Part shown: in pieces, positions 155 through 20,891 of the stretch
Numbering within the stretch: position 1 is the stretch's first letter
Layout: every line of letters begins with the position of its first letter
Source of the DNA: a virus
Strand: one strand, 5' to 3'
Virus record (IMG/VR): IMGVR_UViG_3300025151_000213
Span: 1 to 28,459 of that record
Length of the DNA: 28,459 nucleotides
Translations under genes and position numbers: made by a program
Notes under the pieces: model-generated
The model's input: the letters and a program-made list of their open reading frames with translations, nothing else
Told to the model about the DNA's origin: nothing
The model's database searches: none

Positions 155-610
155 ATGGGTAATCTCGGAGAGTCGTTTGACACCGCTTGGAATCTGGTTA
201 AGGAAGAACCAGATGAATCAACAGATGCTTGGGATGATGTTCATTATAGAGGTAAAGATAATTGTGATAGCTGTGGTTCATACAGGGATCCCAATAGCGA
301 TTATTGCAGGGAATGTTTTGACGGAGCTACGCCAAGAAATAGAGAAAATCCACATCTTCTTGATGGAAAATTAGATGATGTTATGTTATCATCAAGTGAT
401 GCTTACTCATTATGGGATGAAGGCTACGAACCTAACTATGACTTAGTGATACAATCCGCAATAGAGCTTCTTGAGAACATGGGCTACAAAGTTACCCCAC
501 CCAATAATGAAGGGATGGGAGATAATTCAGAATTAGAAAACGACCATGATTTACTACGGCTTTTAATTTCACAACAAAAGTATGAAGAGGAACAGGATAA
601 TCTTGACTAA
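155..610 (+). CDS. Tagged small acidic zinc-ribbon protein 1
   Basis: This is a 151-aa acidic protein of unknown function. It opens with the shared peptide ESFDTAWNLVKEE (about residues 6-18), the first of seven consecutive genes carrying this tag. A zinc-ribbon-like pair CDSC...CREC follows in the first third (CxxC, 12 residues, CxxC). The C-terminal half is acidic and helical with no recognised domain. ATG 155 is chosen because it puts the tag near the N terminus as in the sister genes; a TTG at 134 in the same frame is possible and neither has a strong ribosome binding site. It sits 21 bases ahead of the next tagged gene. The Cys pairs suggest a structural zinc site; a role in the virion or in host takeover is open. 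Confidence 0.8.
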   Translation: MGNLGESFDTAWNLVKEEPDESTDAWDDVHYRGKDNCDSCGSYRDPNSDYCRECFDGATPRNRENPHLLDGKLDDVMLSSSDAYSLWDEGYEPNYDLVIQSAIELLENMGYKVTPPNNEGMGDNSELENDHDLLRLLISQQKYEEEQDNLD

Positions 611-631
611 CAAGGAAATGAGGCGAAAAGA

Positions 632-1234
632 ATGAGTAGTTTTGAAGATGCGTGGAAATTAGTCAAGGAAGATGACGATGATTGCGAGTGCATAACCACC
701 GATATGAGTGGCAATTGCACCCATTGTCTAAGAACACCTGAAGAACAGGCCAAAAGGGATGGGAGAGCTTTGCGATACGAAGATTCTAAAGAATACAAAA
801 AGGACATGAAGAAGGCGATGACTGATGAAGAAATGGTCTATGTGAAGATGCCCAAGTCTATGCTTCCAGTGATAGAGATGCTAACTCAAAACCCAGAAAT
901 GTGGTTGCACACAGGTACAGACATAGGGGGCGATTTCGCAGGTCTTTCAAGAAACAGGCCAAGCGAAAAAGAGCTTTTTCATGACGATTGGGAAATGCAA
1001 GACGATGAAAGAGCATCCCTTAGTAGCATGGATCAATACTCAGATGATTTCCCTTATGATTTGAATTACAGATTGGGATATGACCGAATCGGTGAAGGAA
1101 ATTACGGTGAAAGCGGATTTAGCTATGACCATGACCGACACGGACAAAGAGGAAGGGTTGAAAGAATGAATATGCTTGCATTATTACAAAGATTGGCCGA
1201 AGGCGAATATGAAGATATGAGGAATATATTTTGA
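632..1234 (+). CDS. Tagged acidic protein 2
   Basis: This is a 200-aa protein of unknown function beginning MSSFEDAWKLVKEDDDD, so the shared tag occupies residues 3-12. Right after it comes a Cys group (CEC then CTHC) that could bind a metal, then an Arg/Lys/Glu helical part and a C-terminal half rich in Asp, Tyr and Gly. ATG 632 is preceded by GAGGCG at 619-624, a purine-rich stretch that recurs in front of several genes here. It lies 21 bases after the previous stop and 10 bases before the next tagged gene, so the group is probably one operon. The body resembles neither neighbour, only the tag is shared. Confidence 0.82.
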   Translation: MSSFEDAWKLVKEDDDDCECITTDMSGNCTHCLRTPEEQAKRDGRALRYEDSKEYKKDMKKAMTDEEMVYVKMPKSMLPVIEMLTQNPEMWLHTGTDIGGDFAGLSRNRPSEKELFHDDWEMQDDERASLSSMDQYSDDFPYDLNYRLGYDRIGEGNYGESGFSYDHDRHGQRGRVERMNMLALLQRLAEGEYEDMRNIF

Positions 1235-1244
1235 GGCGATTAAG

Positions 1245-1712
1245 ATGAGTAGTTTTGAGAAGGCATGGTCTGTAGCTAAGAATGAGAGATTCGGAGAGAA
1301 GTTTAACGAAAAGCTGCGAAGGATGAAGGAAGGTGCAAGAGGCGTTCCAGAGAAGTTTAGCGACTTAAGATCCACGACACCAGAAAGAGATAACTTTGAT
1401 GTTATGGCTGAGATACTTGGAACGGATTCGGATGGAGTCGTAGATGAGTATGAAAGGCTCAAGGATATGTTTGACCATGAACCGCCTTCACATTCAGCCC
1501 CCAATGCTCTTGGTTCAAAGGGTCTGATTGATAGAGCAAGAAAAGCTGGAAAAGGCCCTGTAAAGAAATCAGAAGAAGCCATGTTCGTAGATGATGTAAG
1601 AGAGTTAGTCATGCAAGGCTATGAAGTCATGGATGCTGTAAGGCAGGTATCACGCATTCTCGGACTCAATGGTTCTAAATTGATGCGAGCTTATGTGGAG
1701 GCGTACCGATGA
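1245..1712 (+). CDS. Tagged helical protein 3
   Basis: This is a 155-aa protein starting MSSFEKAWSVAKNERF, with the shared tag at residues 3-12. Unlike most of the tagged group it has no Cys pair and is not strongly acidic; it is Lys/Arg rich and looks largely helical. The C-terminal 50 residues (VDDVRELVMQGYEVMDAVRQ...) look like a helix-turn-helix or helical bundle, with a pattern like small regulatory or nucleic-acid-binding helices, but no family is recognised. GAGGCG lies about 10 bases ahead of ATG 1245. The stop overlaps the next ATG by 4 bases, implying translational coupling. Confidence 0.82.
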   Translation: MSSFEKAWSVAKNERFGEKFNEKLRRMKEGARGVPEKFSDLRSTTPERDNFDVMAEILGTDSDGVVDEYERLKDMFDHEPPSHSAPNALGSKGLIDRARKAGKGPVKKSEEAMFVDDVRELVMQGYEVMDAVRQVSRILGLNGSKLMRAYVEAYR

Positions 1713-1924
1713 CCGCATTTGACAAGGCATGGAAAATTGCCAAAGAGGAAACAGCGAAATGCACCCAATGTGACAAAGAAATCACAGAAGGTTTTCTTGA
1801 TCAATCGGCAGGTTGGTTTTGTTCAGAAAAATGTTTGAACAAATATAGCCCCGGATTCATTGATTCACAAGAACATAAGGATGCCTTTGAGAGTGGAGAT
1901 ACGGTTTGGACTACAGTAGAGTGA
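1709..1924 (+). CDS. Tagged zinc-ribbon protein 4
   Basis: This is a 71-aa protein: the tag MTAFDKAWKIAKEET is followed directly by a Cys4 ribbon, CTQC, then about 20 residues, then CSEKC. The spacing is like TRASH/MYM-type or other treble-clef zinc sites, where an aromatic WFC often precedes the third Cys as here. It is the shortest clear case of the architecture tag plus zinc knuckle, and so the best model for the group. GGAGGCG at 1697-1703 precedes ATG 1709, whose first base lies inside the previous gene (ATGA overlap). Function is unknown; a protein-protein adaptor or nucleic-acid contact would fit. Confidence 0.85.
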   Translation: MTAFDKAWKIAKEETAKCTQCDKEITEGFLDQSAGWFCSEKCLNKYSPGFIDSQEHKDAFESGDTVWTTVE

Positions 1925-1929
1925 TTAAG

Positions 1930-2433
1930 GTGGCTAAAGATTCTTTTGAAAAAGCATGGGATGTTGTGAAAGCACGGCCAATTCCCCCTAATGTGGAAGC
2001 ATGGTTGAATGATTATTTTTCACACGAAGATTCAGATGACCAAATGTTCTTCGCTAACCCTAAAACGGGGCAAATTGGCGAGGACATACCATACTCTAAA
2101 TGGAGAGAATTAAATCCCGAAAGCGACATATCCGACCATTGGTATCGTTCTTATGCTTGCGATTGTAATATGAGTGGGGCAGATAAACGAGAGAACTTGG
2201 AAAGATTATTTTTGGATGCTTTAGCTGAAAATCCGAATGCCGATTTAGAAGAATTGTATAACGATTACATGAATGAAGCTCAATGGGAAGGCGGTGGTCA
2301 AGGTCGCTCAAAAAAATGGGCAAAGTCGGTGAGGGAAGCTACTGATGACGAACCCGCTTTCGGAAGATGTGGTCATTGTGGCGGGCAAGCTTCTTTAGAT
2401 CCAAAAACAGGACTTTGGGGGCAATTCTTTTGA
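1930..2433 (+). CDS. Tagged protein 5 with a terminal half zinc ribbon
   Basis: From GTG 1930 this encodes 167 aa starting MAKDSFEKAWDVVKARP, with the tag at residues 5-14. GTG 1921, which overlaps the previous stop, is an alternative; TTG 1906 is less likely. The middle is acidic with many Trp, Tyr and Asn and no recognised fold. The protein ends with CGHC and about a dozen further residues, so only one half of a CxxC...CxxC ribbon is present. The reading frame stops exactly where the next tagged gene begins (TTG 2430 overlaps TGA 2431-2433). That suggests either a truncated ribbon or a site where a new tagged gene was inserted or duplicated. Confidence 0.78.
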   Translation: MAKDSFEKAWDVVKARPIPPNVEAWLNDYFSHEDSDDQMFFANPKTGQIGEDIPYSKWRELNPESDISDHWYRSYACDCNMSGADKRENLERLFLDALAENPNADLEELYNDYMNEAQWEGGGQGRSKKWAKSVREATDDEPAFGRCGHCGGQASLDPKTGLWGQFF

Positions 2434-2582
2434 CGGTATTCGACAAGGCTTGGGGTGTCGTGAAAGCAGTATGCCCCGAATGTGGCGAGGATAGGCCACC
2501 TTACGATTATTCGCATGGGCAAAAGATGTGCGACTTTTGTTATGAGAGCGATTACCATCAAGGTACGAGGGATGTAAAATGA
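2430..2582 (+). CDS. Tagged mini zinc-ribbon protein 6
   Basis: This is a 50-aa protein read from TTG 2430: MTVFDKAWGVVKAVCPECG, then a second pair CDFC about 17 residues on. It is nothing but the tag plus a classical Cys4 zinc ribbon. TTG is supported because it puts the tag at residue 2-11 as in the sisters, because it overlaps the previous stop in the coupling style of this genome, and because GGGGG lies at 2417-2421. No ATG lies in frame between 2367 and the tag. A 17-base stretch coding the tag core is identical to the next gene, so these two copies probably duplicated recently. Confidence 0.78.
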   Translation: MTVFDKAWGVVKAVCPECGEDRPPYDYSHGQKMCDFCYESDYHQGTRDVK

Positions 2583-2603
2583 CCGCATTCGACAAGGCTT
2601 GGG
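2438..2603 (+). repeat. 17-base identity between two tag-coding segments
   Basis: ATTCGACAAGGCTTGGG occurs at 2438-2454 and again at 2587-2603. Both copies encode F-D-K-A-W in the tags of adjacent genes. Other tag copies use different codons for the same residues (TTT/TTC, GAA/GAC, GCA/GCG/GCT), so this identity points to recent duplication or gene conversion rather than constraint on the DNA. Confidence 0.85.
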
Positions 2604-3163
2604 AAGTAGTCAAATTAGACGCATATGAAATGGCAGTAGCCGAAAGGTTTAGTGATCCCCGTGACTTTATGACTGATGAACGCATGAGAGCCAAACTCAT
2701 GGGAATGCCATTTGAAAAGGTGCGTTCAGGGGCTAATCATCCAATGGGCGATCTTGACTATCGTTATTTGGATAAACCAAGTCAGTTAGAACATATGGCA
2801 GATGATGAACTTAAAGCGATTTATGATCAGATGGTGCGGTTAAAACTGATGGGTGATTCTGAAGGCACACCTATGCAAATCGTTAGCCCAAATGATCACT
2901 ATGCCGATTTGCCTGAAGGCACACCTATGTACCCTTGCGCAGTCGAGGTGTGCGATGAACTTATACCGTATGAAGGGAATGCTGTGTGTGATAGGTGCAG
3001 CGAAATAGCCGGAAATCATGGGCCGGGTGCATCTAAATCAAGTCCTGAACACGATGAACGAATCTGTGATTATGGCGATTGCATGAAACCAGCTGTGGGT
3101 GTTAGTGGTGGGGAAGGATCAGCGAGCTGGCTTTGCGATGAACATTGGGATGAGTGGTTCTAA
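2579..3163 (+). CDS. Tagged protein 7 with two zinc sites
   Basis: This is a 194-aa protein beginning MTAFDKAWEVVKLDAYE, tag at residues 3-12. Residues 20-95 are helical and charged. Two Cys groups close the protein: a C-x4-C...CDRC ribbon around residues 120-140 and a C-x4-C...CDEH motif in the last 35 residues, the latter like the Cys3His sites common in phage proteins. An in-frame 17-base direct repeat (2859-2875 and 2913-2929) gives a repeated EGTPM peptide before the first zinc site. ATG 2579 overlaps the previous stop and follows GAGGG. It is the last gene of the seven-gene tag array. Confidence 0.83.
   Translation: MTAFDKAWEVVKLDAYEMAVAERFSDPRDFMTDERMRAKLMGMPFEKVRSGANHPMGDLDYRYLDKPSQLEHMADDELKAIYDQMVRLKLMGDSEGTPMQIVSPNDHYADLPEGTPMYPCAVEVCDELIPYEGNAVCDRCSEIAGNHGPGASKSSPEHDERICDYGDCMKPAVGVSGGEGSASWLCDEHWDEWF
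2859..2929 (+). repeat. In-frame 17-base direct repeat
   Basis: CTGAAGGCACACCTATG is present at 2859-2875 and 2913-2929. The 54-base period keeps the frame, giving EGTPM twice, 18 residues apart, in tagged protein 7. It looks like a small internal duplication. Confidence 0.85.
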
Positions 3164-3457: not shown

Positions 3458-3529
3458 ATTTTATTACTACTACAATTCATTATGAATAATGCGGTAATCT
3501 TTTGATGAATGGTAATACACATTGTTAGC
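3458..3529 (+). promoter_or_regulatory. Possible promoter/operator region before the GP88-like gene
   Basis: This non-coding, AT-rich stretch has a TATA-like TTTTATTA at 3459-3466 and a 13-base palindrome ATTCAT-T-ATGAAT at 3475-3487. The spacing to the gene start is compatible with an archaeal TATA box plus an operator, but no BRE was clearly seen. It follows the 13-bp stem, so a new transcript may begin here. Confidence 0.3.
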
Positions 3530-5278
3530 ATGAGTGGTAGCGTTAGCCCTTTTGAAGAGGGTTGGTCTATCACTAAGGAATCCGATGAAAAACCGGATAG
3601 GTTTGATTTTAATGCAGAATACGATCCTACTGGATTAGTCCCAGAGGGCTATGCAGAAAAGCATCCAAACGAGTATTGGGAAGAAGCTCACGGCAAAGGT
3701 TCTAATCCCCGTGATTGGGAAGAAATGTCAGAAGAAGAAAGAGATGCGTATGATGAAAGGTACTTCTCTAACCCCATGCCTTATCCTCGACCTTTGGGTT
3801 TGCTACCACATTCCGAGATAAACAGATACCGTGATTTGTTGGATGAGTTTAGAACGCAGTTTTCAAGGTTTGAGCATAATCCCAATCTTTCTGAAGATGA
3901 ACGCATGGAATTAGCTGTGTCGCTGTTTGACCCTGCAAACGAAGCTGCGAATCTTAGTGAGGACTTTGCTGAGGCGATAGCCAATGAAATAACATACAGA
4001 TCTCAAGAGCAGACTGTTGATCACATGAGAAGGGGCGATTTACATTCAGGGGGTTGGAAAAATGACGGCACACCTTTCAAGCCAAGAGGCGATTCAAAAC
4101 ACCTGCCTTTCTCCCAACAATTCCAAGATATTCATACAGGCGAACCGATGACCATTCGCTCTTTGCTACTGAAAGCTCTTGGCGATCCCGATGAAATGCT
4201 ACATTGGAGTGAAAGGTTTGGTGGTAAAGCCCCTTACAGTAAAAACGATAGAAGTGTTTTCAATTGGGTAGGTTCGAATAAGGATAAATTAAATCAATAT
4301 CTTGATGAAAATAGAGTAGATTGGATAACAGACGAACCTCAACCAATAGCTCCATTAAGCGACCTTACTGATTTGACGGGCAAAAAACAGAAGCTGTTAG
4401 CTGAGGATTTGATTGGTGGTGGCTTTTCATTTACATCAAAGATGCCCGGAGGGTCGTTGGCCTTCCCAGCTCATACTTGTGATGTAGGAATGAGATTAGC
4501 TGGAATAAAAACGGCAGGTTGCCATGCTTGTTATGCAACAAAAGGCAGGTATCCATTGAATAACAAACAAATCCAAATGTATGATAATCTTCACGCTTTA
4601 ACCAGAAATGATCCAAGATATGCCTCAGCATTATCTGATAGAATAAAGGCGCAAATGATGTTTGAAGGAGAACCTTATTGGAGATGGATGGATAGTGGCG
4701 ATTTACAAAGAGGCAAAGGAGAAACAAAAAAGAACTTTGGAGCTAAGCATTTTGCCCAATTGATAGACATAGCAAGAAATCTTCCTCAAGGTAAGTTTTG
4801 GCTACCTACTCGTCAAATGGGGGGTGTCAAACAAGTTATGGATGAAAGAGGAATTGATGCCCTGCCTGATAATCTAAAGACTCGATTATCTGTTCCTTTC
4901 ATCGGTCAAGCTTCAGATAATGAAGTAAATCGAATATTCGGTCTGTCGAATGTTACAAGTCTGTTAGATGAGCTGAAAGAAATGAGGAACATAGATGTGA
5001 GCGAGATTTCTTCTATTGATCCTTCAAGTAAGATATGCCCTGCTTCGGCATTAGGCGGTAGCTGTGATGATTATGATTGTAGAGATTGTTGGGAACATGA
5101 AGGCCCTATTAGCTACAATCTTCATACTCCTCTGGGTGGTAAAAACCGCCCAATAGAATTACTGCAAACCAAACCCGGTATGCCCGCTATGGAGTTAGAT
5201 TACGGAGAAGATTATCGGCCATTCGCAAGAACCGTAGATGATGGTTTGGATATTCGTCAATTCATGCGTAAAACATGA
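3530..5278 (+). CDS. Tagged GP88-like cysteine-rich protein
   Basis: From ATG 3530 this encodes 582 aa. Residues about 7-16 (PFEEGWSITK) are a variant of the shared tag. The next 270 residues are acidic and unrecognised. The C-terminal half resembles the phage 'gene product 88' family: SKMPGGSLAFPAHTC, then a GCHACYATKGRY block, a DSGDL block and a FWLPTRQ block. Visible Cys residues are C317, C331, C334 and then C503, C512, C517, C520, suggesting one or two metal or iron-sulphur sites; the family's reaction is not established to my knowledge. ATG 3530 fits the tag position; ATG 3509 is an alternative. Fusion of the tag to a probable enzyme-like domain sets this gene apart from the small zinc proteins upstream. 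Confidence 0.75.
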   Translation: MSGSVSPFEEGWSITKESDEKPDRFDFNAEYDPTGLVPEGYAEKHPNEYWEEAHGKGSNPRDWEEMSEEERDAYDERYFSNPMPYPRPLGLLPHSEINRYRDLLDEFRTQFSRFEHNPNLSEDERMELAVSLFDPANEAANLSEDFAEAIANEITYRSQEQTVDHMRRGDLHSGGWKNDGTPFKPRGDSKHLPFSQQFQDIHTGEPMTIRSLLLKALGDPDEMLHWSERFGGKAPYSKNDRSVFNWVGSNKDKLNQYLDENRVDWITDEPQPIAPLSDLTDLTGKKQKLLAEDLIGGGFSFTSKMPGGSLAFPAHTCDVGMRLAGIKTAGCHACYATKGRYPLNNKQIQMYDNLHALTRNDPRYASALSDRIKAQMMFEGEPYWRWMDSGDLQRGKGETKKNFGAKHFAQLIDIARNLPQGKFWLPTRQMGGVKQVMDERGIDALPDNLKTRLSVPFIGQASDNEVNRIFGLSNVTSLLDELKEMRNIDVSEISSIDPSSKICPASALGGSCDDYDCRDCWEHEGPISYNLHTPLGGKNRPIELLQTKPGMPAMELDYGEDYRPFARTVDDGLDIRQFMRKT

Positions 5279-10156: not shown

Positions 10157-10653
10157 GCTACCATATTGGAAGAAGGCCGGAAGAATTGCAGCTCAAAGAA
10201 GGGCCGTATAGCAACTACGAATCAGTATTGCATGGCGATCTTCCTACTACATACGATGGCCTATTCGAATTGCTTGACGCTATGGACTATGTGATTAAGG
10301 AATGGGGAGAGTCAATGATTCCCTTTGGTTTGTCTGATATGGCTGAAGAAGTATCACATGAGATATACAGTCATAACATAAACACAAGGTTTGCGATTTA
10401 TTCATATTTAGATGATGAAAGCTCCGAGCAGATGGACTTCGTTGATGTTATGAAGCAGATGAATAAGCTCAAGAACGCATATCTTCCATTAGCTAAATCC
10501 TATGCAAGAGTTCCATCCCTATCTCATTGGTATCTCAACTTACCTATGCGTGTTGCAGCGTCTTTCAAAGGCATTAGGCAACTTGAAAGAGATAGAGCAA
10601 GAGAGGCAATTAGAAGAGAGGATGACATAGCAAGAAGGGGGTTGTATAAGTGA
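10153..10653 (+). CDS. Unknown helical protein
   Basis: This is a 166-aa protein, mainly helical, with an acidic first two thirds and a strongly basic last 35 residues (QLERDRAREAIRREDDIARR). No Cys motif and no membrane segment are seen. GGGGGTGATGGATGA lies directly before ATG 10153, which overlaps the preceding stop by 4 bases, and its own stop overlaps the next gene. The coupling ties it to the candidate small terminase and to the basic-tail protein. No function was recognised. Confidence 0.75.
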   Translation: MSYHIGRRPEELQLKEGPYSNYESVLHGDLPTTYDGLFELLDAMDYVIKEWGESMIPFGLSDMAEEVSHEIYSHNINTRFAIYSYLDDESSEQMDFVDVMKQMNKLKNAYLPLAKSYARVPSLSHWYLNLPMRVAASFKGIRQLERDRAREAIRREDDIARRGLYK

Positions 10654-12011
10654 GTTACGATGACGATGCTCATGATTCAAGGTCTTGGGGGCCAGCTTTT
10701 TGTGAAACTTGCGGGGATGTTGAGCTTGACGATCACGATTACGGTCAAGGAGTTAGACAATGCGACCAATGTTGGGATAAGGAAGTTTTGGGCGATTCTT
10801 ACTTCACCGATTTTGATGATGATTTTAAGGAATTAAACAAATCGTCTATTCAGAAAATAGCAGCCAATCCCCGTGATATTGGGAATATATGGCGACCACG
10901 AACCCAAGAGATGACTGGTGGTTTCAACCCAAGACAGGTCTTAGATCTGCAAATCAACCCCAATGAAGATGATGATGATTTAGCTCATAACTCTCGCAAC
11001 ACGACTGAGGATACAGAAAGCAGGGATCAAGCTGACCCCGATAAGAGGCGTGAAAGAGCTTTGAGAGAATTGATGCCCGGACTACAACACATACAAATCA
11101 AACCAGAAGTTATGTCTGATGTAATCGAGCGTTCTCCAAGATTTGAGGAAGAAAACCAACTTCTTGAGTCAAGATTGGGAGTGGATTTGGGTGCAAGAGG
11201 ATTATCCTTCTCGGCTGGCGCACATAGAGGCACAGTTAGAAGTGATACACCGTATGTGAATTATGGTCGAGGCACTACCAATGCCTTCGGCAAGTCAGAA
11301 GATTTACTCAAAGCTGCAAAAGACAAGTACAAGTCACGCAAGTATGAAGATGACGAGGATGATGAAAAGCCTAAGAAGAAATCAAACAAGCGTGAAAAGA
11401 GGTCTAACAAGCGACCTGCTAAGAAAGGCAAGGCCAAAAAGAAAGCAAAAAAGAAGATGCCGATGCCTAAGAGGGGGGCTGCACCACCACCAAGAAGCGG
11501 TGGGTCTGAAGCTCAGATGCCTCTCAAGTTCCGCAATCCCGGCCAATATAACCAACAGCAATCAAAGAGGCGAATGGGTGCAGGTAGTCCAATGCCTGAT
11601 ATGAAACAGGGCAGGGGAACAAAGCTACCACCTTCACCTAACATGGGAACAAGGATGCCTATGCCTATGAGAGAAGAATCAAGAAAGCCCGATAAGCTCA
11701 CAGACAAAGAGCTTGGCGACCCTCTTGGTTCAGAAGATCCGTTAAAGATGCTAAAATCAAAAGGTGGTTTGGGTAGCTTAAACAGAACAGAAATCATCGG
11801 CCTCAAAAAGAAAATTGAGGCGTTGATGAGAAAATTAGAGAAATTGACGAAGGCAACACCCGAAAACGAAGCAAAGGATAAGGAAGGTGCTACGCCCAGT
11901 GAAGATACTGCAAGCGCACCTCAAGGCGGAACAGAAAACGATGAGAAGCCTTGGATGTTCTATCATGATGCTACTCCCCTCTTAGTAGCGGGAGTAGTGG
12001 GCAAGAAATGA
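10650..12011 (+). CDS. Zinc-ribbon protein with a histone-tail-like basic block
   Basis: This is a 453-aa protein from GTG 10650, which overlaps the previous stop. Residues 18-41 form a Cys4 ribbon (CETC...CDQC). An acidic central part follows. About residues 240-277 are an intense Lys/Arg block (KREKRSNKRPAKKGKAKKKA), preceded by an acidic run. Pro/Met/Gly-rich disordered sequence follows, then a coiled coil around 375-400 (EIIGLKKKIEALMRKLEKL) and an acidic tail. The basic block resembles histone H1 or viral core-protein tails that neutralise packaged DNA. A role in DNA condensation or capsid core assembly is inferred. AAGGGGGTTG precedes the start. Confidence 0.76.
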   Translation: MSYDDDAHDSRSWGPAFCETCGDVELDDHDYGQGVRQCDQCWDKEVLGDSYFTDFDDDFKELNKSSIQKIAANPRDIGNIWRPRTQEMTGGFNPRQVLDLQINPNEDDDDLAHNSRNTTEDTESRDQADPDKRRERALRELMPGLQHIQIKPEVMSDVIERSPRFEEENQLLESRLGVDLGARGLSFSAGAHRGTVRSDTPYVNYGRGTTNAFGKSEDLLKAAKDKYKSRKYEDDEDDEKPKKKSNKREKRSNKRPAKKGKAKKKAKKKMPMPKRGAAPPPRSGGSEAQMPLKFRNPGQYNQQQSKRRMGAGSPMPDMKQGRGTKLPPSPNMGTRMPMPMREESRKPDKLTDKELGDPLGSEDPLKMLKSKGGLGSLNRTEIIGLKKKIEALMRKLEKLTKATPENEAKDKEGATPSEDTASAPQGGTENDEKPWMFYHDATPLLVAGVVGKK

Positions 12012-13852
12012 GCCGTTCATGGATGTTTGACCCTGATTACTTCACCATCCAGAAAGGATGGGGGGTCTATGACCTTGACCAAGTGATAGAGGCTTTTGTC
12101 AATGGTCAAGGTGCTGCGGTTCAAGATTTAATGCAATTAGACCATCATAATGTTCGAGAGGGTTTGTTATCGGGGGTTGAGATAGATGCAATAGACATGG
12201 CTATCCGTAATGCTTTGATTACAACAGAAGTGTATGAGGTATTGCATAGTGGCCCTACCGATCCCCAGTTTGAAAATGCTGCAAAATTAGCTATACAGGC
12301 GGGCGCACCTATCATCAATACTGCAATTCAACAACAAAATCAAATCAATGCAGGTAGAGGAATACCGCCCATGCCTATGGCTTTTCAATCAGATAGAACA
12401 GGGGCGGTTCAAGTCAATGCGCCTTGGGTTCATGGTGCATCTGCTGAACCTAAACAAGTTCTTCTACCGGGAACAAGACACGCAAATCCATTTGACTCAA
12501 ACAATCAATTGATTACTCACATAACCAGCTCTAATACAAAACGAGAAGAAGGTTGGGCAAGACCATACGAAGAAGCTTTACAATCATCTGGAAGAGAGGA
12601 AAAGAAACGAAACGACAGATACATTCGAGGACACAAGGATCTTAGCAATCGTAATCTAATATCATTTCACGATAACAATCAGGCTTTACAAATGAACACC
12701 GCAGTTCGTGAGCATTTTCAACAAGCTCTTGCTCAAGGGTTAGATAGAGCTTCAGCCATAAATCACGCAAAGGAGATGTGGATGCAAGACAACAGGGCAT
12801 TCCACATGACTGGGCATCATCACCATGCCCAAGAATCAACCTATGGCCGTGTTATACGCCCAGATGATGGTGAGCAACCGTTCTCCGATGCGGAGATAGA
12901 ACATGAAATGCAGATGAGGCAGGGTACTGACCCCGAAGTGACTCAAGCTCCGCAGACTAATCCATCAGCAGTTATACACCCCGATCATAGAGATACTACA
13001 TGGCTGAAAAATATGGTATCTAATCAAAGGCATTCATTCTATGACAAAGATACAGGAATCGCCAATCCAAAGGTAGTGAGCTACCTAACCGACCACCATT
13101 TCATGGATGAGATGGAAGCTTCGCAATTCATAGAAGATGTGAGTAGAAAACAGAACGGTATGCCTACAAGTGGCAGTATCAAGAATAGATTCTTAGAAGC
13201 TCTACTCAATCATCATGTAACTCAATCATCAGCAGTACCCACATGGTATGACGATGCACCACCGCCCAATGTAGCTGAGGCATTAGACCCCTCACAAGCT
13301 GCGGTACAACAACCGACTGAGGCACTACAACGACCCGAACCGATTACAGTTCATACTGCACCACCGCCTGAAGCACCCGAACCGCCCGTAGCCCCAATAG
13401 CTCGACCAGAAGCAAATACTCCACCCCCATTGGTTTCATCACCAATACCTACTCTAAATCATCAACACGGTATAAACACAAATATACCATTGACGGGTGC
13501 AGATGCACAGGGTATAGGCGGGGGCGGTATTATGGATCAGATAGCTACTATTCTTGGCCGTATAGCTGGAAACAGGACTATCTTGCGTTCTGAGGATGCC
13601 AATCAAATAGAGCAATATCTTGAAAATGTGCAAATGGAGATTGCTAAGGCCGTTTTAGAGGACAGTTATGATGTACCTACTTTCGATATAAACTCTCCAA
13701 CGGACATAGCTATGATGGGGGCGCACATCCAAAGACCCACTTCTGATGTAATCAGTATATTATTTTCAAAAGGCGATTGGAGAAACATCGCTAAGACAAT
13801 AGGCGTTCAGCATGAACAGGTGCAAATGGTGAAGGTGGCATTCCATGAATGA
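12008..13852 (+). CDS. Large probable virion protein, Pro/Gln-rich
   Basis: This is a 614-aa protein starting MSRSWMFDPDYFTIQKGWG. The first 100 residues are helical, followed by polar stretches with many His and Gln. Residues about 400-500 are rich in Pro and Ala (for example APPPEAPEPPVAPIARPEA), clearly disordered. The last 100 residues are helical again (MDQIATILGRIAGNRTI...). A GW pair near residue 17 faintly recalls the shared tag but does not match it. Its long low-complexity centre, size and place before the terminase suggest a structural or internal protein. Unidentified; a scaffold-like or tail-linked role cannot be excluded. Confidence 0.72.
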   Translation: MSRSWMFDPDYFTIQKGWGVYDLDQVIEAFVNGQGAAVQDLMQLDHHNVREGLLSGVEIDAIDMAIRNALITTEVYEVLHSGPTDPQFENAAKLAIQAGAPIINTAIQQQNQINAGRGIPPMPMAFQSDRTGAVQVNAPWVHGASAEPKQVLLPGTRHANPFDSNNQLITHITSSNTKREEGWARPYEEALQSSGREEKKRNDRYIRGHKDLSNRNLISFHDNNQALQMNTAVREHFQQALAQGLDRASAINHAKEMWMQDNRAFHMTGHHHHAQESTYGRVIRPDDGEQPFSDAEIEHEMQMRQGTDPEVTQAPQTNPSAVIHPDHRDTTWLKNMVSNQRHSFYDKDTGIANPKVVSYLTDHHFMDEMEASQFIEDVSRKQNGMPTSGSIKNRFLEALLNHHVTQSSAVPTWYDDAPPPNVAEALDPSQAAVQQPTEALQRPEPITVHTAPPPEAPEPPVAPIARPEANTPPPLVSSPIPTLNHQHGINTNIPLTGADAQGIGGGGIMDQIATILGRIAGNRTILRSEDANQIEQYLENVQMEIAKAVLEDSYDVPTFDINSPTDIAMMGAHIQRPTSDVISILFSKGDWRNIAKTIGVQHEQVQMVKVAFHE

Positions 13853-15146
13853 CTTGATTCTCAAAGCTCGTTTGTATGAGCAAGAGCAACTTGAGAAAGG
13901 CTTGGGGCAAATGGCCGTCAATGCTTTTGATAGAGTTACAGGGACAAGCGGAGATTTATCGGAGGGGGCAACAAATCGGAATCCCTTCCCATTCGGAAGA
14001 AACAAAAATGCACCTGCTAATCAACCTCAAGAAGCACCTACTCAAGAAGCACCTACTCAAGGGCCTCAAGATCTAAGACCCGGACAGGAAGAAATGAATC
14101 GCAGGGCAAATAGCAATCCCAATGCAGGTTTTGACATGGGTAATATGGGCGATGCTATGAGTATGTTCAATACAGACGCACCCGCATCTCAACAGAATAG
14201 AAGAGTTAGAACAGGCGGTGCTTTGAGAAATACTCTTGGTGCTGTGAGAGATGCAGGTTCAGCTATGGCTTCTGGTAATTTACCAACCGCATCTAATCGA
14301 GCTGCGGCTCAAAGAGATAGAACGGGAATGAGTCAAGAGGAACAATCATCTCTTGTTGGGCAACAAGACGCTTCAATGTTCAGCCAACAACAACAAAGCA
14401 AACAAGCAGGTCAAAATGCGGGGTATGCTAAGCTCATGCAAAACGCTCCGGGTTTAGCTTCAGACCAAGCAAAACAAACAATGGGCAATATACAAAGCGG
14501 TCAAGATCCATTAGCTAATTCTCAAACAGGGGTGGCTACAGGCGGTAATACTACTAATTTCATGAATCAATTCGCATCCGGTGTCGGCAATTTGATCGGT
14601 CAAGGCATGAATGCTTACAACGCCCAAAGAGCTAACCAATCCAATGTAGGAGTAGGGTCAGCAGGGCAAGGCATACCACAAGCATCGCCACAACAAGCCT
14701 CCACAACAGGAACGCCAGTGAATCAAGCACAGCCCAAACCAAACGCTTCTGGGGGGCAACCTGCTCAGAATCAGCAACCGTATAATCTTGGAGAAGAAGC
14801 GAAAAGAGCATTTGGAAATACAGCAATAGCGGATTCTCAGACGGCATTAACCGAGGCGAAGGAGAGGGCGAATACAAAGGGTGGCTTTGGAACAGGGGTT
14901 ATGTCTAATCTTTTGACGGGTGGAATGGCTGGTGTGGCGAGGGGCGCGTATAACGCATACCAAAGGCATCAGGGCAGACAAGATGTAGCCAATGTGCAGA
15001 ACCGACAACAAAGGCTGATGGCGGGAGATCCATCTGCTATACAAGCTTCAGAAGATATTCTCGACCATTACTATGGAATCCATAAAGCAAGATTGGAGAT
15101 AACTGACAGGCGAAGTACGGAGGTAGTTCGACTTGCCTACAGATGA
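13845..15146 (+). CDS. Asn/Gln/Gly-rich probable virion protein
   Basis: This is a 433-aa protein with a helical start (ILKARLYEQEQLEKGLGQ), then 280 residues dominated by Gln, Asn, Gly, Ala and Thr without hydrophobic cores, including three copies of a QEAPT-like unit near residues 60-72. Toward the C terminus a Gly/Ala patch (GTGVMSNLLTGGMAGVARGA) may associate with membrane or other proteins, followed by a helix. GAAGGTGG lies ahead of ATG 13845, which overlaps the previous stop by 8 bases. Such composition is common in internal or decoration proteins and in membrane-penetrating virion proteins; no family was recognised. Confidence 0.72.
   Translation: MNDLILKARLYEQEQLEKGLGQMAVNAFDRVTGTSGDLSEGATNRNPFPFGRNKNAPANQPQEAPTQEAPTQGPQDLRPGQEEMNRRANSNPNAGFDMGNMGDAMSMFNTDAPASQQNRRVRTGGALRNTLGAVRDAGSAMASGNLPTASNRAAAQRDRTGMSQEEQSSLVGQQDASMFSQQQQSKQAGQNAGYAKLMQNAPGLASDQAKQTMGNIQSGQDPLANSQTGVATGGNTTNFMNQFASGVGNLIGQGMNAYNAQRANQSNVGVGSAGQGIPQASPQQASTTGTPVNQAQPKPNASGGQPAQNQQPYNLGEEAKRAFGNTAIADSQTALTEAKERANTKGGFGTGVMSNLLTGGMAGVARGAYNAYQRHQGRQDVANVQNRQQRLMAGDPSAIQASEDILDHYYGIHKARLEITDRRSTEVVRLAYR
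14028..14057 (+). repeat. 15-base tandem repeat
   Basis: CAAGAAGCACCTACT occurs twice in tandem and a third, partial unit follows, giving QEAPT-QEAPT-Q in the Asn/Gln-rich protein. The repeat keeps the frame. Confidence 0.8.
15119..15124 (+). promoter_or_regulatory. Ribosome binding site fixing a TTG start
   Basis: GGAGGT at 15119-15124 stands 8 bases ahead of TTG 15133, at the 3' end of the previous gene. No in-frame ATG lies between it and the tag-coding segment, so TTG is the most likely start of the next gene. Confidence 0.65.
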
Positions 15147-16116
15147 TATATTTGACCAAGCTTGGAATGTTGCTAAAGGTTGGAGATTACCTTCGTCTGA
15201 TGATTGGAATCAGATGGATGAGAGAAGAAAGCGTGGTGGGCCATTACCAAAGACAGGCAAGGCCAAACCCAAACCACAGTTAAGCGAAAGAATCCTTATT
15301 GATGAACAATATACGATGGAAGATGCTCTTGCAGATGAGGCAGCGGGTTATGGTAAGATTTACCGTTTGCCTAATGGGGATTATGAGTTCGTAGGGCATC
15401 ACCCTAATCCCGAAGCTGAAGATGTTGAGAAAGGCTTCTTTGACGATTTCGCAAGAAAGGTGAAGCAGAAGCAGAAGGAACAAGAGGCTCTAAACGAATA
15501 CATAGTCAATAATCTGATTAGGAATCCCGATGGACTGGAAGCTGGCGTTGCAGCCCATCATCGAGCGTTAGAGGCTATGAACAGGCCACCACCACCTGCT
15601 ATGCCTGAGTCGGTAGATTCCATCACGGCCACACCGCCACCAAGAGAGCGTGATAGTGTTGAGCCAAGCGAAATCCGACCAGAAACCGTTAGAGCTGAGA
15701 TTCCTCGAACAGGATTTAGAGGCGGGGCTGAGGGTGCGCCTACACCGCCTACACCCAATTCGGTTGATGAGGATGAAGATGAGGATGAAACAATTCTTCA
15801 AGCTTCAGAACCGCACCAAGTAGCAGATAGCTGGACTGTCGTTAAGGATCCATTCGCAAACCCGTTCTTCAATGAAAACTTTGCATCTCTAACTGAGGAA
15901 CAACCACCCGAAGTTACGCACGATGATACGCCCACATTCTCACTTCAGCCCGATTTAATCAAGGGCGACTCACCAGAAGATGCTCTCAAAAACGCAGGTT
16001 TTGATGCAAGACAAGGAGATGATATGAGCCTATTACCATCAAGTGCATTCAACAAGGGGGATGTTGCACCAAGAGCTGATACAAGCTTGCTACCTGCGGG
16101 GTGGGATACTGAGTAA
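15133..16116 (+). CDS. Tagged acidic/Pro-rich protein before the terminase, with a possible second tag
   Basis: This is a 327-aa protein from TTG 15133 (MPTDDIFDQAWNVAKGW): the shared tag is at residues 7-15, although this gene is 12 kb from the tag array. A helical part follows (about 95-150), then a Pro/Thr/Glu-rich disordered part with a DEDEDEDE run near residue 215. A second tag-like segment, DSWTVVKDP at residues 232-240, keeps W234 and K238 but lacks the Phe. The remainder is acidic with short repeats of SLLP-x. TTG is supported by GGAGGT 8 bases upstream; it overlaps the previous gene by 14 bases. It is likely a virion or internal protein; the function is unknown. Confidence 0.74.
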   Translation: MPTDDIFDQAWNVAKGWRLPSSDDWNQMDERRKRGGPLPKTGKAKPKPQLSERILIDEQYTMEDALADEAAGYGKIYRLPNGDYEFVGHHPNPEAEDVEKGFFDDFARKVKQKQKEQEALNEYIVNNLIRNPDGLEAGVAAHHRALEAMNRPPPPAMPESVDSITATPPPRERDSVEPSEIRPETVRAEIPRTGFRGGAEGAPTPPTPNSVDEDEDEDETILQASEPHQVADSWTVVKDPFANPFFNENFASLTEEQPPEVTHDDTPTFSLQPDLIKGDSPEDALKNAGFDARQGDDMSLLPSSAFNKGDVAPRADTSLLPAGWDTE

Positions 16117-16372
16117 TAACTTTGAGAAGGCTTGGAATATAGCCAAACAAACTCCTGAGCAATCAGCATTTGAAATGCAGATTTTTGAAAAGTATGGTCA
16201 CAACATCGCAACGCAACCGTTTTATGAATTAGGGCAATATTTGACCTTGTATTATTTGTTTGATGAGCATCATATAGCTACATGGAATCAATCAAAAAAT
16301 AGTGGATTTATTTTTGATGACGATACGGTATCAAGGGTTATTGAAAGTAATAACGATGGGGTGCTTGAATGA
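16109..16372 (+). CDS. Tagged small protein 10, probable CTG start
   Basis: This is an 87-aa frame ending at TGA 16370-16372. The tag appears as NNFEKAWNIAKQT. If the tag is at the N terminus as in its sisters, the start would be CTG 16109 (M-S-N-N-F), preceded by GGGGTG at 16098-16103 and overlapping the previous stop; ATA 16106 is unlikely. An in-frame ATG at 16061 would add 16 residues to the front. The body is rich in Phe, Tyr and His, with an acidic end, and no domain was recognised. The stop overlaps the terminase ATG by 4 bases. Confidence 0.65.
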   Translation: MSNNFEKAWNIAKQTPEQSAFEMQIFEKYGHNIATQPFYELGQYLTLYYLFDEHHIATWNQSKNSGFIFDDDTVSRVIESNNDGVLE

Positions 16373-17784
16373 GCGATGCCGTTCAAAAATTAGCCAGTAA
16401 GGTTGATTTTGAGATGGGGAGGCGTGACTTCCAATACTTCTTTGAGGATATATGCGGATTCCAGCTCGCACACTTTCACAGGGAATGGTATGAGAATGCT
16501 GAGAACAACAGTAAGATATGCGTTATAGCAAGTCGTGATCACGGCAAATCCGTATTCTTTAGATGCTACTTGCTATGGAAGATGGCTTACAACCCCAATA
16601 CTGAGGTTCTATTCTTCAGCCACAGTCAGCACCAGTCTATTGACCACATGAGTAAAATGGATGAGCTGATAGTCACTACACCTGCTTTAGCCCATCTAAA
16701 ACCAAAGAGAGGTTGGGCTAAGCAGTTATTCAAGATGACCAATAGATCATCTATTCGAGCTATGTCTATCGGTAAAGCGGTTCGTGGGGCGCACCCTGAT
16801 ATTGTAGTGCTTGACGATATTCTATCCAGTGAAGCTCAGACTCAGCTAAAATCCATAGCTACATGGTTCTATACTGCACTTCTACCCGTTCTGCACCACA
16901 CAGCTCAGATGTGTATTGTAGGAACGCCTTTCTCATATACTGACTTGTATTCTGAGCTAAAGGGCTTGGATGGATATTGCGTTAGGGAATATCCCGCAAT
17001 CAATGAAGCTACAGGAGAACCACTATGGCCGGAGAGGTGGAATCTTGATGCGTTGAATGCTCGTAAGGGTGAGATGACTTCTATTGCATTCACAAGAGAG
17101 TATCTATGCAAACCGATAGCAAGTGAGTCCAGCTTGTTCCCAGAAGAAACATTAGAGCGTGTGAAAGATGACTCTTTGGCTTTGTCTTACTATCCCGATA
17201 CAGATGAGCATCTGAATTACTACATCGGTTGGGATCCGGCAATTAGCGCAGACAGGAGAGCTGACTATACTTGCATGATAGTAATAGGTATGGATGAGAA
17301 TAGACACAAACGCATCGTTCATGTTCATCATGAGAAAAATATGGATTTCAATCAGCAGATAGACAAAATCATAGAATTGAACGCTCGATTCAATCCAGTC
17401 ATAATAGAGCTTGAAACGAACAACTTTGCTATGGCTTTTAATCAAGTTCTTCAAGAAATTAGCGATTTACCTATCAAACCGTTCAATATGAGTCGTATGA
17501 GAAAAGAAGCTTTGATTCATACCTTACAACTACACTTTGAGCAGAAGCATCTGATTATTCCGTACAAAGATGAAGGTGCTACTCGAAGGCACATGAATGC
17601 TTTATTGACCGAGTTATCTTACTTCACTATGCTTGAGAATGGTAAGATGGAGAGCTTGGGGGCGCATGACGATATGGTAATCGCATTGGCTCTATCAGTT
17701 CAAGCTACTAAGGAATATAGAGAGAACATTGTCATACTTGACGGTGCTACATGGCAAAGAAGGTTGGGGTGGCAAGATGCGTGA
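16369..17784 (+). CDS. terL: Terminase large subunit (packaging ATPase-nuclease)
   Basis: This is a 471-aa DNA-packaging motor. Walker A is SRDHGKS (residues 55-61) after a hydrophobic strand (ICVIA). Walker B is IVVLDD (145-150), the usual acidic pair. An IVGTPF strand (about 184) is typical of motif III. The nuclease part shows GWDPA with D289, then IIELE with E347/E349, and HDDM with D434/D435, the RNaseH-like metal ligands. It cleaves concatemeric DNA and pumps it through the portal into the prohead. Length fits the family. GGGGTG lies just ahead of ATG 16369. The portal follows one gene later. This is the firmest identification in the window. Confidence 0.93.
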   Translation: MSDAVQKLASKVDFEMGRRDFQYFFEDICGFQLAHFHREWYENAENNSKICVIASRDHGKSVFFRCYLLWKMAYNPNTEVLFFSHSQHQSIDHMSKMDELIVTTPALAHLKPKRGWAKQLFKMTNRSSIRAMSIGKAVRGAHPDIVVLDDILSSEAQTQLKSIATWFYTALLPVLHHTAQMCIVGTPFSYTDLYSELKGLDGYCVREYPAINEATGEPLWPERWNLDALNARKGEMTSIAFTREYLCKPIASESSLFPEETLERVKDDSLALSYYPDTDEHLNYYIGWDPAISADRRADYTCMIVIGMDENRHKRIVHVHHEKNMDFNQQIDKIIELNARFNPVIIELETNNFAMAFNQVLQEISDLPIKPFNMSRMRKEALIHTLQLHFEQKHLIIPYKDEGATRRHMNALLTELSYFTMLENGKMESLGAHDDMVIALALSVQATKEYRENIVILDGATWQRRLGWQDA

Positions 17785-19114
17785 GAGAAGATACATTGAG
17801 CCATTGGTCGGTGTTGAAACCCTTGCAGACTCACTTGACATTAGGAAAAACCCATTGGCCGCAGCAGGTTTAGCAGCAGTAGGTGGTTTCGCCACTGGTG
17901 TAGGTTCTGAAGCTACACGGATAGCTCAAGAGAAGGTCGAGCAAGCTACGAAAGATCTGCAAGCATCGCAAAAAACAGATGCTGACAGGGCTAAGAGGGC
18001 TAAGACTCAAGAAGGGCAGGGGGCGGAGATTGAAGGGATGAACAATTCGCAAAGCTCTTCTCCGTCTGCTGATGTTGATGAAGAAGTGTCTGCACCAACT
18101 GAAGATGGACTACCAACCGACCTTCAATTATCTCTTGACAAGAATTGGTTTTTGCATAATTTCGGCATGACTGGTTCTGAAATGGCCTCACTATTGATAC
18201 AGAAACAAGAGTTAGAAGCTTTAGACGCATTGTATCCTTTGCTTCTTGCTGAAAAAAGAGCTATTCTATCCTCTTTTCCCGGCGTATCGCCACATTTGGT
18301 AAAGCATCTGCCTTTGACTGATGTTGATTACGATAGGTTAAACAGATATTCTGATAGATTGGGCATCCCATTTCGAAGATTCGTTAAGATGTGGGAAGCT
18401 GCAAATACATCAGAAGCAAGAAATGATTCATACAATATATGGAAATCTGTTGTTGATGCCGATCAGCGTATTTCAAATCGAGAAAGAAACATACTGCAAC
18501 AATGTTCAGATTTGTTAATTCGTAAGGGGGCTTTGAATGCTCATACTTTGAAGTTCAATGGCGTTAGTGCAAGTCCGGCTGAGATTTCATCACTAATCAA
18601 ATCACACGGATTTTTGTTTGATATTGTTTCTGTTGGTGTAGTCAGTAAGTCTGTTGGTAGGGGTTTATTCTATGACATAAAGAGGCGTGATGTGATTCTA
18701 AAAGATGCCCCACGATTCTTGGCGGGGTTAATTGAAAGCGGGTCAAACATCAAGTTTGATGTAAGATCCAATCCACGCATAGAGCTAAGCTTCAAAGCTC
18801 CTACTGCACCTTGGTATTCAGATGCTTTGAACAAAGAAATGGAGATTGAGTGCGTAAAGCCATCAACGGGCGGTTTGATAATAGAAGGTGAAAGGGGTGT
18901 TTTGAAGGCATTAGATATGGCTTTACCACATATAACATCTAAAAACCACGAAGCATTCATGTTAGAGAAGGCTCTCAGGCACGATAGGAATGCCCTTACT
19001 GTGATGGTGCATGATTCATTGGATAAAAAGAAACAAGTGAAGTTTTTGAAAAGTAAGAGATTATCTGTAAGTGAGTTTGACCTAATGAAGGAAGAGGTGA
19101 TGAAGAGTGGTTGA
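17777..19114 (+). CDS. Unknown head-module protein between terminase and portal
   Basis: This is a 445-aa protein from ATG 17777 (MRERRYIEPL), which overlaps the terminase stop and follows GGGGTGG. A Gly/Ala-rich hydrophobic helix is at about 27-45 (LAAAGLAAVGGFATGVG). A charged coiled region (QEKVEQATKDLQASQKTDAD) and a Ser/Asp-rich linker follow. The C-terminal two thirds looks globular, helices first and then strands (IKFDVRSNPRIELSFKAP). No family was recognised. Its place between terL and portal is conserved-looking and its single hydrophobic helix is odd for a packaging protein; membrane targeting of prohead assembly is one possibility. Confidence 0.78.
   Translation: MRERRYIEPLVGVETLADSLDIRKNPLAAAGLAAVGGFATGVGSEATRIAQEKVEQATKDLQASQKTDADRAKRAKTQEGQGAEIEGMNNSQSSSPSADVDEEVSAPTEDGLPTDLQLSLDKNWFLHNFGMTGSEMASLLIQKQELEALDALYPLLLAEKRAILSSFPGVSPHLVKHLPLTDVDYDRLNRYSDRLGIPFRRFVKMWEAANTSEARNDSYNIWKSVVDADQRISNRERNILQQCSDLLIRKGALNAHTLKFNGVSASPAEISSLIKSHGFLFDIVSVGVVSKSVGRGLFYDIKRRDVILKDAPRFLAGLIESGSNIKFDVRSNPRIELSFKAPTAPWYSDALNKEMEIECVKPSTGGLIIEGERGVLKALDMALPHITSKNHEAFMLEKALRHDRNALTVMVHDSLDKKKQVKFLKSKRLSVSEFDLMKEEVMKSG
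19094..19100 (+). promoter_or_regulatory. Ribosome binding site before GTG start of portal
   Basis: GAGGTGA is complementary to the end of archaeal and bacterial 16S rRNA and stands 6 bases before GTG 19107. The same heptamer precedes the starts at 21282, 22942 and 27797, which supports all four starts. Confidence 0.75.
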
Positions 19115-20891
19115 TAAGAAGCGAATGGATAAGATATTTTCAGCCGTTGGATTGGATATGGAAAGGCACACCACGCCTATTCCATCTATGCCGTTATTTA
19201 CATCTGGTGTGCAAGAACCGCCCCTGCTTCAAGGAATTACCATTCCAGCTCTATATGCTGCCGCATACGAATGTATGGTTCTCAGGTCTATTTTGAATCA
19301 TCTTTGTGTTGAAACATTCAGAAAAGGGTGGGGATGGAAGCCGAAGTTTGTCGTCAAGAGCGTAGATACAGACCGTAAGTTCAACCAAGAGTATGAAATG
19401 GATCCTGAAACAGGTGGCGAAGTAAGGAAGGCAGATAGGGCGCAGATAGAATATGCAGATGCCATATTCAACAATGTCAATGGTATGGGTCAGACATTCA
19501 TAGACATTCTAAGAGAAATTGAAATGGATTTGAACATTGTAGATGACGCATACCTAATAGTCACGAAAGAGTATTTCATTGACCCCAAAACAAAAACAGC
19601 TACCTTCTTTAGAATCAAGGAGATTTCAAGAGCTGACCCTATATTCATGAGAATACTTTCAGACAAGAGAGGGGTTAGAGGCGGTTCTCAATACACAAGT
19701 TTGGTTGATAGAGCGTTTAGAACAACAGACCCAGATGCGGTTTGCCCAACGACTGGTATGCCCGTAGTACCTATTCATTACATGAATCTCGCAGGTGTGG
19801 GTTCGGGTCAAGTCTATACTGAAGGTGAAGTTATTCACATTAGTAAGTGGTCGCCATCTAAATTGTATGGTCGAAGTCCTGTAGCTACAATGTGGCGACA
19901 AGTAAATACTCTCATAGCTATGGATAACTATGTCTATTCAGCTTACCAAAAGAGAAGGATGCCGAGAGGCGTTATGGTGATCAAATCATCAAATATGGAA
20001 ACGGTTGAGAGGACAGCTCGTAATATCCAAGAGCATCTTGAGCGTGATCCCAATTACATTCCTACGATTGGTGTTGAAACCGAATCCGGCAGGGGTGGTT
20101 TAGAGTATGTTCGTATGATGGATACGCTTGAGGAATTACAATACATACCTATCAAAGATGATATTCGTCAAAGAATATCTGCATTCTATGGGGTTTCAAA
20201 TGTATTCATGAATGATGTATCGGGTGGGGGTCTGAATAACGAAGGTATGCAGATTGTAGTTAGCAATCGTTCCGTATCATTCTCCCAGTCAATTTACAAC
20301 AGACTACTATTCCCTGCGTTGCTTGAAGCGTTTGGTATAGATGAATGGGAGATTACGCTTACGCCTCATGAAGAGGAAGATGAGATTATGCAACTACGCA
20401 GGGATGAGATGGCTATCCGCAATATGATGCAGATGAAGCAATCAGGGTTCAATGCTAAGTTAAGAGATGATATAGACGATGTATATCTCAAGTTTGATTA
20501 TTCAGAACCAAGTGAGGAAGAAGTAGCTGCACAAGAAGCTGCGATGGCTCAAGAACAAGGCGGTGGTCAAGCACCTGTTCAAAAAATGGGGCAGTTTGAG
20601 CTATTCAAAAGAGATGTAACCGATCCTGTTCATGGTAGCATCCCAGACGCTTCAGCTATGGTATCTACAAGAGGTTCTGGTATCAAGCCACTTCGAGAAG
20701 GTGGTGTAGCTCAAACAAGAGGCGGGCAGACAAAAAAGAATCAAAGAGTAATACACAATGAAGGCTCTCCTACATCTTCTAAAGGCAATAAAGATACAGA
20801 TAAAACATCAGCCGAGAAGATAGCTGACGCTAAGCTGAAAAGATTGAATATAGACGGGCAACGAGGTAAGAGTGATGAAAACTCTCAATAA
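19107..20891 (+). CDS. Portal protein
   Basis: This is a 594-aa protein of portal size. It begins with a wing-like mixed part and has the typical stretch EVIHISKWSPSKLYGRSPV, then AMDNYVYSAYQKRRMPRGV, and later a long helix and the RQRISAFYGVSNVF...GGGLNNEG block, all characteristic of phage portals of the HK97/SPP1 type. A Gln/Ala/Glu-rich disordered tail follows. Twelve copies would form the ring at the capsid vertex through which TerL pumps DNA. GTG 19107 is chosen because GAGGTGA lies at 19094-19100. It is the second marker of the head module. Confidence 0.88.
   Translation: MVDKKRMDKIFSAVGLDMERHTTPIPSMPLFTSGVQEPPLLQGITIPALYAAAYECMVLRSILNHLCVETFRKGWGWKPKFVVKSVDTDRKFNQEYEMDPETGGEVRKADRAQIEYADAIFNNVNGMGQTFIDILREIEMDLNIVDDAYLIVTKEYFIDPKTKTATFFRIKEISRADPIFMRILSDKRGVRGGSQYTSLVDRAFRTTDPDAVCPTTGMPVVPIHYMNLAGVGSGQVYTEGEVIHISKWSPSKLYGRSPVATMWRQVNTLIAMDNYVYSAYQKRRMPRGVMVIKSSNMETVERTARNIQEHLERDPNYIPTIGVETESGRGGLEYVRMMDTLEELQYIPIKDDIRQRISAFYGVSNVFMNDVSGGGLNNEGMQIVVSNRSVSFSQSIYNRLLFPALLEAFGIDEWEITLTPHEEEDEIMQLRRDEMAIRNMMQMKQSGFNAKLRDDIDDVYLKFDYSEPSEEEVAAQEAAMAQEQGGGQAPVQKMGQFELFKRDVTDPVHGSIPDASAMVSTRGSGIKPLREGGVAQTRGGQTKKNQRVIHNEGSPTSSKGNKDTDKTSAEKIADAKLKRLNIDGQRGKSDENSQ

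Follow-up and report, generated by a model that had tools for sequence, protein, structure and literature searches.

In the stretch of viral DNA analysed here, 28,459 nucleotides long (positions 1 to 28,459 of the IMG/VR virus record IMGVR_UViG_3300025151_000213; hereafter the window), a nine-residue peptide, commonly F-[DE]-x-A-W-x-[VIL]-x-K, stands at the start of proteins that are otherwise different. We propose that this tag is probably a capsid-targeting and processing signal, and we infer that the proteins bearing it are docked during head assembly, cut after the terminal Lys, packaged and injected. In the clade of related viruses the tag sits at the N-terminus of unrelated bodies, is restricted to the late-gene strand and ends in a Lys that is found at the junction to the same bodies also where the rest of the tag is missing. 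A preliminary description of this DNA had suggested a packaging tag of the phage T4 kind, processed by the head protease; sequence comparisons make this the best-supported reading, in view of the Lys junction, the co-occurrence with a Peptidase_S78 protease, the late strand, the types of cargo and the near-absence of the motif from host proteins.

All tagged genes of the window lie on the plus strand. Seven follow one another: 155..610 (151 residues, weak zinc ribbon; tag FDTAWNLVK at 176-202), 632..1234 (200 residues; FEDAWKLVK at 641-667), 1245..1712 (155 residues; FEKAWSVAK at 1254-1280), 1709..1924 (71 residues, weak zinc-finger matches; FDKAWKIAK at 1718-1744), 1930..2433 (GTG start, 167 residues; FEKAWDVVK at 1945-1971), 2430..2582 (TTG start, 50 residues, with a zinc ribbon match at E=7e-4, under the curated cut-off; FDKAWGVVK at 2439-2465) and 2579..3163 (194 residues; FDKAWEVVK at 2588-2614). 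The preliminary description had counted seven consecutive genes; its seven products do carry F-[DE]-x-A-W-x-[VIL]-x-K, all in frame and at residues 4-16, while the count itself fell short, as there are at least ten tagged genes in two clusters, those with tags at 3551, 15151 and 16121 being added. A six-frame scan of the window with a position-specific score returned exactly ten tag sites, and nothing more down to a much lower threshold.

The eighth gene, 3509..5278 (tag FEEGWSITK at 3551-3577), encodes a GP88 domain (PF17338, E=2.5e-12). In this copy the tag is followed by an extra stretch of about 200 residues, then by LLLK|ALGDPDE (Lys at 4172-4174) and the GP88 part; in shorter relatives the tag stands directly before the GP88 part, without the extra stretch. 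The window copy thus looks like a two-cargo polyprotein, judged by its sequence layout. A likely cargo polyprotein was also seen in another contig (L077:7411-9480, minus strand), where a protein of 690 residues has four tags (residues 8, 327, 478 and 636) with a new segment after each. The remaining two tagged genes are 15133..16116 (FDQAWNVAK at 15151-15177), whose product carries a conserved domain at its C-terminus and, before it, the relic DSWTVVK|DPFANPF (15826-15846), and 16112..16372 (86 residues; FEKAWNIAK at 16121-16147), directly before the terminase gene. The form W-[TNS]-[VI]-V-[KE]-[DN]-PFANPF is widely kept near the C-terminus of this pre-terminase protein, in the window (15826-15846) and in relatives, some lineages having Glu for Lys.

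Relatives were collected from IMG/VR through their terminase and by scanning twice for the tag pattern; the second scan alone yielded tags in 69 contigs. Strict-pattern matches inside long open reading frames (ORFs) of unrelated contigs (e.g. L059, L066, L070, L078) were taken as chance and left out of the final counts. The search of related viral contigs that the preliminary description had called for gave 614 tagged ORFs, no two identical, in which 575 different tags occur; in 606 of the ORFs a possible start codon lies within 20 residues of the tag. The bodies fall into 202 clusters without detectable mutual similarity, and in an alignment of 129 unrelated members only the tag is shared, with W8 and K12 invariant, in agreement with the earlier remark that everything after the tag differs. 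The repertoire of tagged bodies varies from relative to relative; orthologues retain the tag while their bodies diverge (F, A, W and K are invariant in 11/11 members of the family of the 1245 gene), so that the loss of tags in orthologous genes, named beforehand as an outcome that would speak against the proposal, was not what we found. The reversed motif had no match in the first loci, which gave 191 for the motif itself, and none in each of 34 related records carrying 1-17 motif matches each. In 19 tiled records the tags are on the late-gene strand only, and genes of the opposite strand have none.

The usual form of the tag is M-T-A-F-[DE]-x-A-W-x-phi-phi-K, where phi is hydrophobic. Among 127 tags on unrelated bodies there are 104 distinct peptides and 120 distinct DNA sequences, and codon usage is as free as had been claimed (Phe: TTT 67, TTC 59; Lys: AAA 67, AAG 60). 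With codons varying freely and nearly every tag DNA distinct, it is the peptide that is under selection, and a repeat acting at the DNA level is ruled out. The suggestion of an amphipathic helix is supported by a hydrophobic moment of 0.56, shuffled tags having 0.34 +/- 0.014; in both AlphaFold2 models a low-confidence helix spans residues 3-11 and stops just before Lys12. Conservation ends sharply at this Lys, which is present in 97% of tags (tag position 9), no residue exceeding 23% at the next position. The residue after the tag is Met in 16% of tags, as is expected if tags became fused to intact genes.

The terminal Lys is also kept where the same bodies stand behind other leaders. The C-tail of the window's portal protein (19107..20891, plus strand) reads FELFK (20595-20609)|RDVTDPVHG..., and the body after FELFK, shared by the portals of the window and of near relatives, is encoded separately, as a tagged protein, in two others (L013 and L015). 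In L013 it has the form MSAFDLAWELVK|RDVRDPIHG and is absent from that virus's own portal; FELFK|RDVTDP thus compares with AWELVK|RDVRDP, the same body with a different leader and the Lys in place. The portal C-tails of relatives close with a conserved PVQK, beyond which the sequences differ widely and in some cases (L044, L096) resemble zinc ribbons. A head-module protein (10650..12011, plus strand) contains DLLK|AAKDKYKSRKY, with SEDLLK at 11295-11312; in the relative L020 a full tag, FEDAWSISK, occupies the SEDLLK spot, and other relatives have DILK, DVLK or DIIK there, so that DVLK|ARRKYKGRKY can be set against FEDAWSISK|GKRKYKGRKY. Similarly, a polyprotein junction PLIK|MPIYHP corresponds to the tagged AWDLVK|MPIYHP, and a further head protein (22117-type) as well as several two-domain proteins show like Lys junctions. 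In 58 of 82 distinct untagged contexts the Lys is exactly at the junction, the P3 residue being hydrophobic in 53 of the 58. When the best context per body cluster is taken, the Lys is present in 13/21, with 5.7% as background (p=9e-12), and a smaller, earlier test agrees (26/32 contexts; 6/8 families, p=2e-6). For the portal and the head proteins, an origin from decayed tags is not evident.

The window encodes a candidate enzyme for the cut after this Lys, the head maturation protease at 26396..27757 (plus strand; Peptidase_S78, E=1e-11), which has conserved hydrophobic-x-K sites of its own (26474-26488, 27374-27385, 27614-27631). Peptidase_S78 is encoded by 25/26 tag-bearing records, the exception being a 30-kb fragment. 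The major capsid protein (27797..28459, plus strand, cut off by the window end) has an invariant TDLLK|AD just upstream of its conserved N-arm (TDLLK|ADSPL-type site, Lys at 27905-27907), where the capsid protein of the halovirus HVTV-1 aligns as MSK|ADNL; this is a predicted maturation site. A second predicted cleavage site is the conserved N-terminal F-x-I-x-K (12041-12055) of another head-module protein (12008..13852, plus strand). Where a Lys is conserved in isolation within an otherwise variable part of a head protein, P3 is hydrophobic in 10/13 cases, as compared with 29% around other residues (p=4.5e-4), and the next residue is Ser, Ala or Gly in 9/13, as compared with 23% (p=4.8e-4). 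The protease gp4 of phage HK97, the type S78 enzyme, cuts the capsid protein after Lys. Given this, the capsid Lys site and the co-occurrence with S78, it is plausible that the virus's own prohead protease takes the last residue of the tag as its P1 Lys. Lys is also a cleavage residue of trypsin, so in ordinary tryptic proteomics such viral processing looks the same as digestion of the sample.

Recognisable domains of the tagged bodies comprise D12 and C5 DNA methylases, GP88, helix-turn-helix domains and many small zinc ribbons, as well as ASCH-like and HNH/GH-E-like domains, both under the curated cut-off. In a ten-member family the body starts with K|MPxYHGT; the six best Foldseek matches of its AlphaFold model, which has a predicted local distance difference test score (pLDDT) of 67, all belong to the ADP-ribosyltransferase (ART) superfamily, none being significant, so that the model is suggestive of an ART-like fold. 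The model of the 1245 family (pLDDT 57) was too poor for a structure search. By analogy, and as far as domain matches can tell, the list resembles the known injected proteins of T4, which include Alt and IPI (PMC9026906), and of phage P1, which include Dar (PMC9024508).

We propose the following course of events. The F..AW..phi face of the short amphipathic helix would bind a component of the assembling prohead, for which the scaffold, the capsid N-domain and the protease's C-terminal region are candidates; Phe4 and Ala7-Trp8 would thus serve targeting and Lys12 the cut. Inside the head the S78 prohead protease would cut after the terminal Lys and free the untagged body, and the bodies, fast-changing enzymes and zinc-ribbon proteins, would be packaged alongside the DNA and delivered to the archaeal cell upon infection. 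For the same body, fusion to the portal tail may be an alternative route into the head, with the same release site; in known portals the C-terminus faces the head interior. Somewhat more tentatively, we think it fairly likely that the exchangeable nine-residue address-and-release peptide constitutes a general cargo code across the clade, by which whatever protein stands behind the peptide would be loaded into the prohead, released at the Lys by the S78 protease and injected along with the genome; the cargo modules would also move to portal tails and into polyproteins of the head.

Several observations weigh against this proposal. The junction Lys is missing in 24/82 untagged contexts, and some contexts scored as untagged resemble degenerate tags (e.g. 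xxAFRLLK), which inflates their independence, the true independent number being smaller. In several relatives the C-terminal domain of the 15133-type protein has Glu, not Lys, at the equivalent position; this element is not always a Lys site. Some relatives, such as a virus contig from a single-cell genome (described below) and G009, have just one or two strict tags; the tag is thus frequent in only part of the lineages. Weak, too, is the ART assignment, with a best E of 0.47.

The same facts may be read as cleavage without delivery of cargo: the tag and the phi-x-K sites would serve the processing of polyproteins and of ordinary minor proteins of the head or scaffold, the bodies would stay structural or be degraded scaffold, and nothing would be injected. 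This accords with the membership of several tagged or Lys-junction proteins in the head module (the portal tail, the 10650 and 15133 genes). About 200 unrelated and quickly replaced bodies, with DNA methylases and ART-like proteins among them, are however unlike a structural set, the more so as body repertoires vary among relatives, and we consider this explanation improbable.

To an uncleaved docking motif we assign the same low standing. Here FxxAW..K would bring late proteins to some factor of the host or the virus, such as a polymerase, a clamp or a membrane complex, with the Lys as part of the interface; an amphipathic helix with one hydrophobic face suits such a role, which would also account for the strong conservation of F, A and W. 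It leaves unexplained, however, the junction Lys found without FxxAW and the copies of the same bodies fused to portal and head proteins. The motif is, moreover, nearly missing from host proteins, with 9 scattered matches in 116 Poseidoniales genomes (at most one per genome) versus 1 in the control, and it is missing from the opposite-strand viral genes. Mimicry of a host short linear motif is rejected as the principal explanation, being unlikely in view of this near-absence, and the host- or polymerase-docking alternative of the preliminary description is weakened in its host-mimicry form. Loading of the cargo into the tail or baseplate instead of the head would fit the confinement of tags to the late strand; prohead proteases work inside proheads, as in HK97 and T4, and the portal C-tail, which carries the same body family, points into the head in known portals, which makes this option very unlikely. 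A single paralogous family with bodies diverged beyond recognition, hinted at by the common start MTA-FDKAW and the clustering of the genes, is the least credible explanation of all and is rejected as very unlikely, as several distinct known families are represented among the bodies (D12 methylase, C5 methylase, GP88, zinc ribbons), which also occur untagged.

The virus itself has an HK97-type capsid protein, a portal, a terminase (large subunit at 16369..17784, plus strand; PF17289; phrog_38, E=2e-74) and the Peptidase_S78 protease, all encoded in the window. Matches to the capsid protein in the phage collection were confined to haloviruses of the HVTV-1 / HCTV-5 group, while those to the portal comprised these and one Methanomassiliicoccales virus; the sequence of the capsid protein found no match among solved structures at E<=0.01. 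A contig in the Ca. Poseidoniales single-cell genome AG-422-I20 encodes a capsid protein 78% identical to that of the window; it has two tags only, both right before the terminase, like the second cluster of the window. As tag-bearing contigs reach 108-111 kb, these matches and the single-cell contig together place the window among the tailed viruses of Poseidoniales (Marine Group II), the magroviruses in the broad sense. Genomes of 90-110 kb with a virus-encoded PolB are characteristic of this group (Magrovirales); PolB was present in only 1/7 tag-bearing virus records tested, mostly fragments, and the assignment is accordingly kept at this broad level. The relation of magroviruses to Druskaviridae is treated in the profile of the International Committee on Taxonomy of Viruses (PMC12999244). 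The late region of the window also encodes a small GTPase-like protein (6202-6930; GTP_EFTU / Arf / Roc, best E about 6e-4) and a small protein with an EF-hand/dockerin-like repeat and zinc-ribbon-like cysteines (9004-9411).

If the proposal is right, an effector role upon injection can be predicted for some 200 hardly annotatable protein families encoded by very abundant archaeal viruses of the ocean; the DNA methylases and ART-like proteins among them would likely target host defence or serve takeover of the host. The question of what archaeal tailed viruses inject would become testable, and a short peptide would be at hand with which proteins can be loaded into an HK97-type shell. Should the cargo-code reading hold, the effectors that uncultured archaeal viruses inject could be read straight from sequence. 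In the literature searched we found no capsid-targeting tag of an archaeal virus, nor any on such a scale, although an earlier mention in the magrovirus literature is possible.

Among known systems, HK97 gp4 is of the same protease family as the window's enzyme (Peptidase_S78) and has Lys at P1; to our knowledge, only the capsid protein and the protease itself are processed there, and no tagged cargo has been described. The Druskaviridae HVTV-1 and HCTV-5 are the closest cultured relatives of the portal and the capsid protein, with a similar gene order and a capsid protein that aligns at K|AD. The head region of HVTV-1 has no FxxAW tag (best score 2.4 versus a cut-off of 13), and the tag as an ancestral trait of Druskaviridae was rejected on this account. 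HVTV-1 has another repeated element, around YVDSPxEAPEGVQVQxG, in its head-module genes 113, 115 and 116 (region 58000-82000, L189); the carriers are a zinc-metalloprotease-like protein, a zeta-kinase/ART-like protein and a small protein, possibly a different module with a similar job.

In phiKZ-like phages and SPN3US a single prohead protease removes N-terminal propeptides from several head proteins and ejected proteins; these propeptides are mostly long (111-254 residues), are cut after Glu and are without a short common tag (PMC10052503). In phage P1 an N-terminal signal of DarB suffices to send a reporter into the head, the cargo is antirestriction, and the N-terminus of DarA is taken off by the head protease (PMC9024508, PMC12810830). 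Unlike the tag described here, the Dar N-termini share no common consensus and form no multi-family tag.

A close parallel is the capsid-targeting sequence (CTS) of T4, an N-terminal propeptide of 10-19 residues (PMC9026906). Like the tag, it is a short N-terminal element of otherwise different proteins (IPI, IPII, IPIII and Alt); its first half serves targeting, as is proposed for the tag, and among its cargo are an ADP-ribosyltransferase and a restriction inhibitor. In the 10-residue CTS of IPIII, residues 4 and 7 are for targeting and residues 8 and 10 for processing (PMC9026906). The end of the T4 CTS is the cleavage site, where it is removed by the prohead protease, as is predicted from sequence for the tag. 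The T4 protease gp21 cuts after Glu, whereas the tag has a predicted Lys site, a predicted S78-type protease and an unrelated sequence; with Lys in 97% of tags and a Peptidase_S78 protease, the T4 CTS / gp21 system proper is ruled out. T4 has a handful of tagged proteins and the archaeal-virus clade about 200 body families; the hosts here are archaea, and the bodies also move between the tag, the portal tail and other head proteins, again unlike T4. The tag probably works as a CTS does, without being homologous to that of T4.

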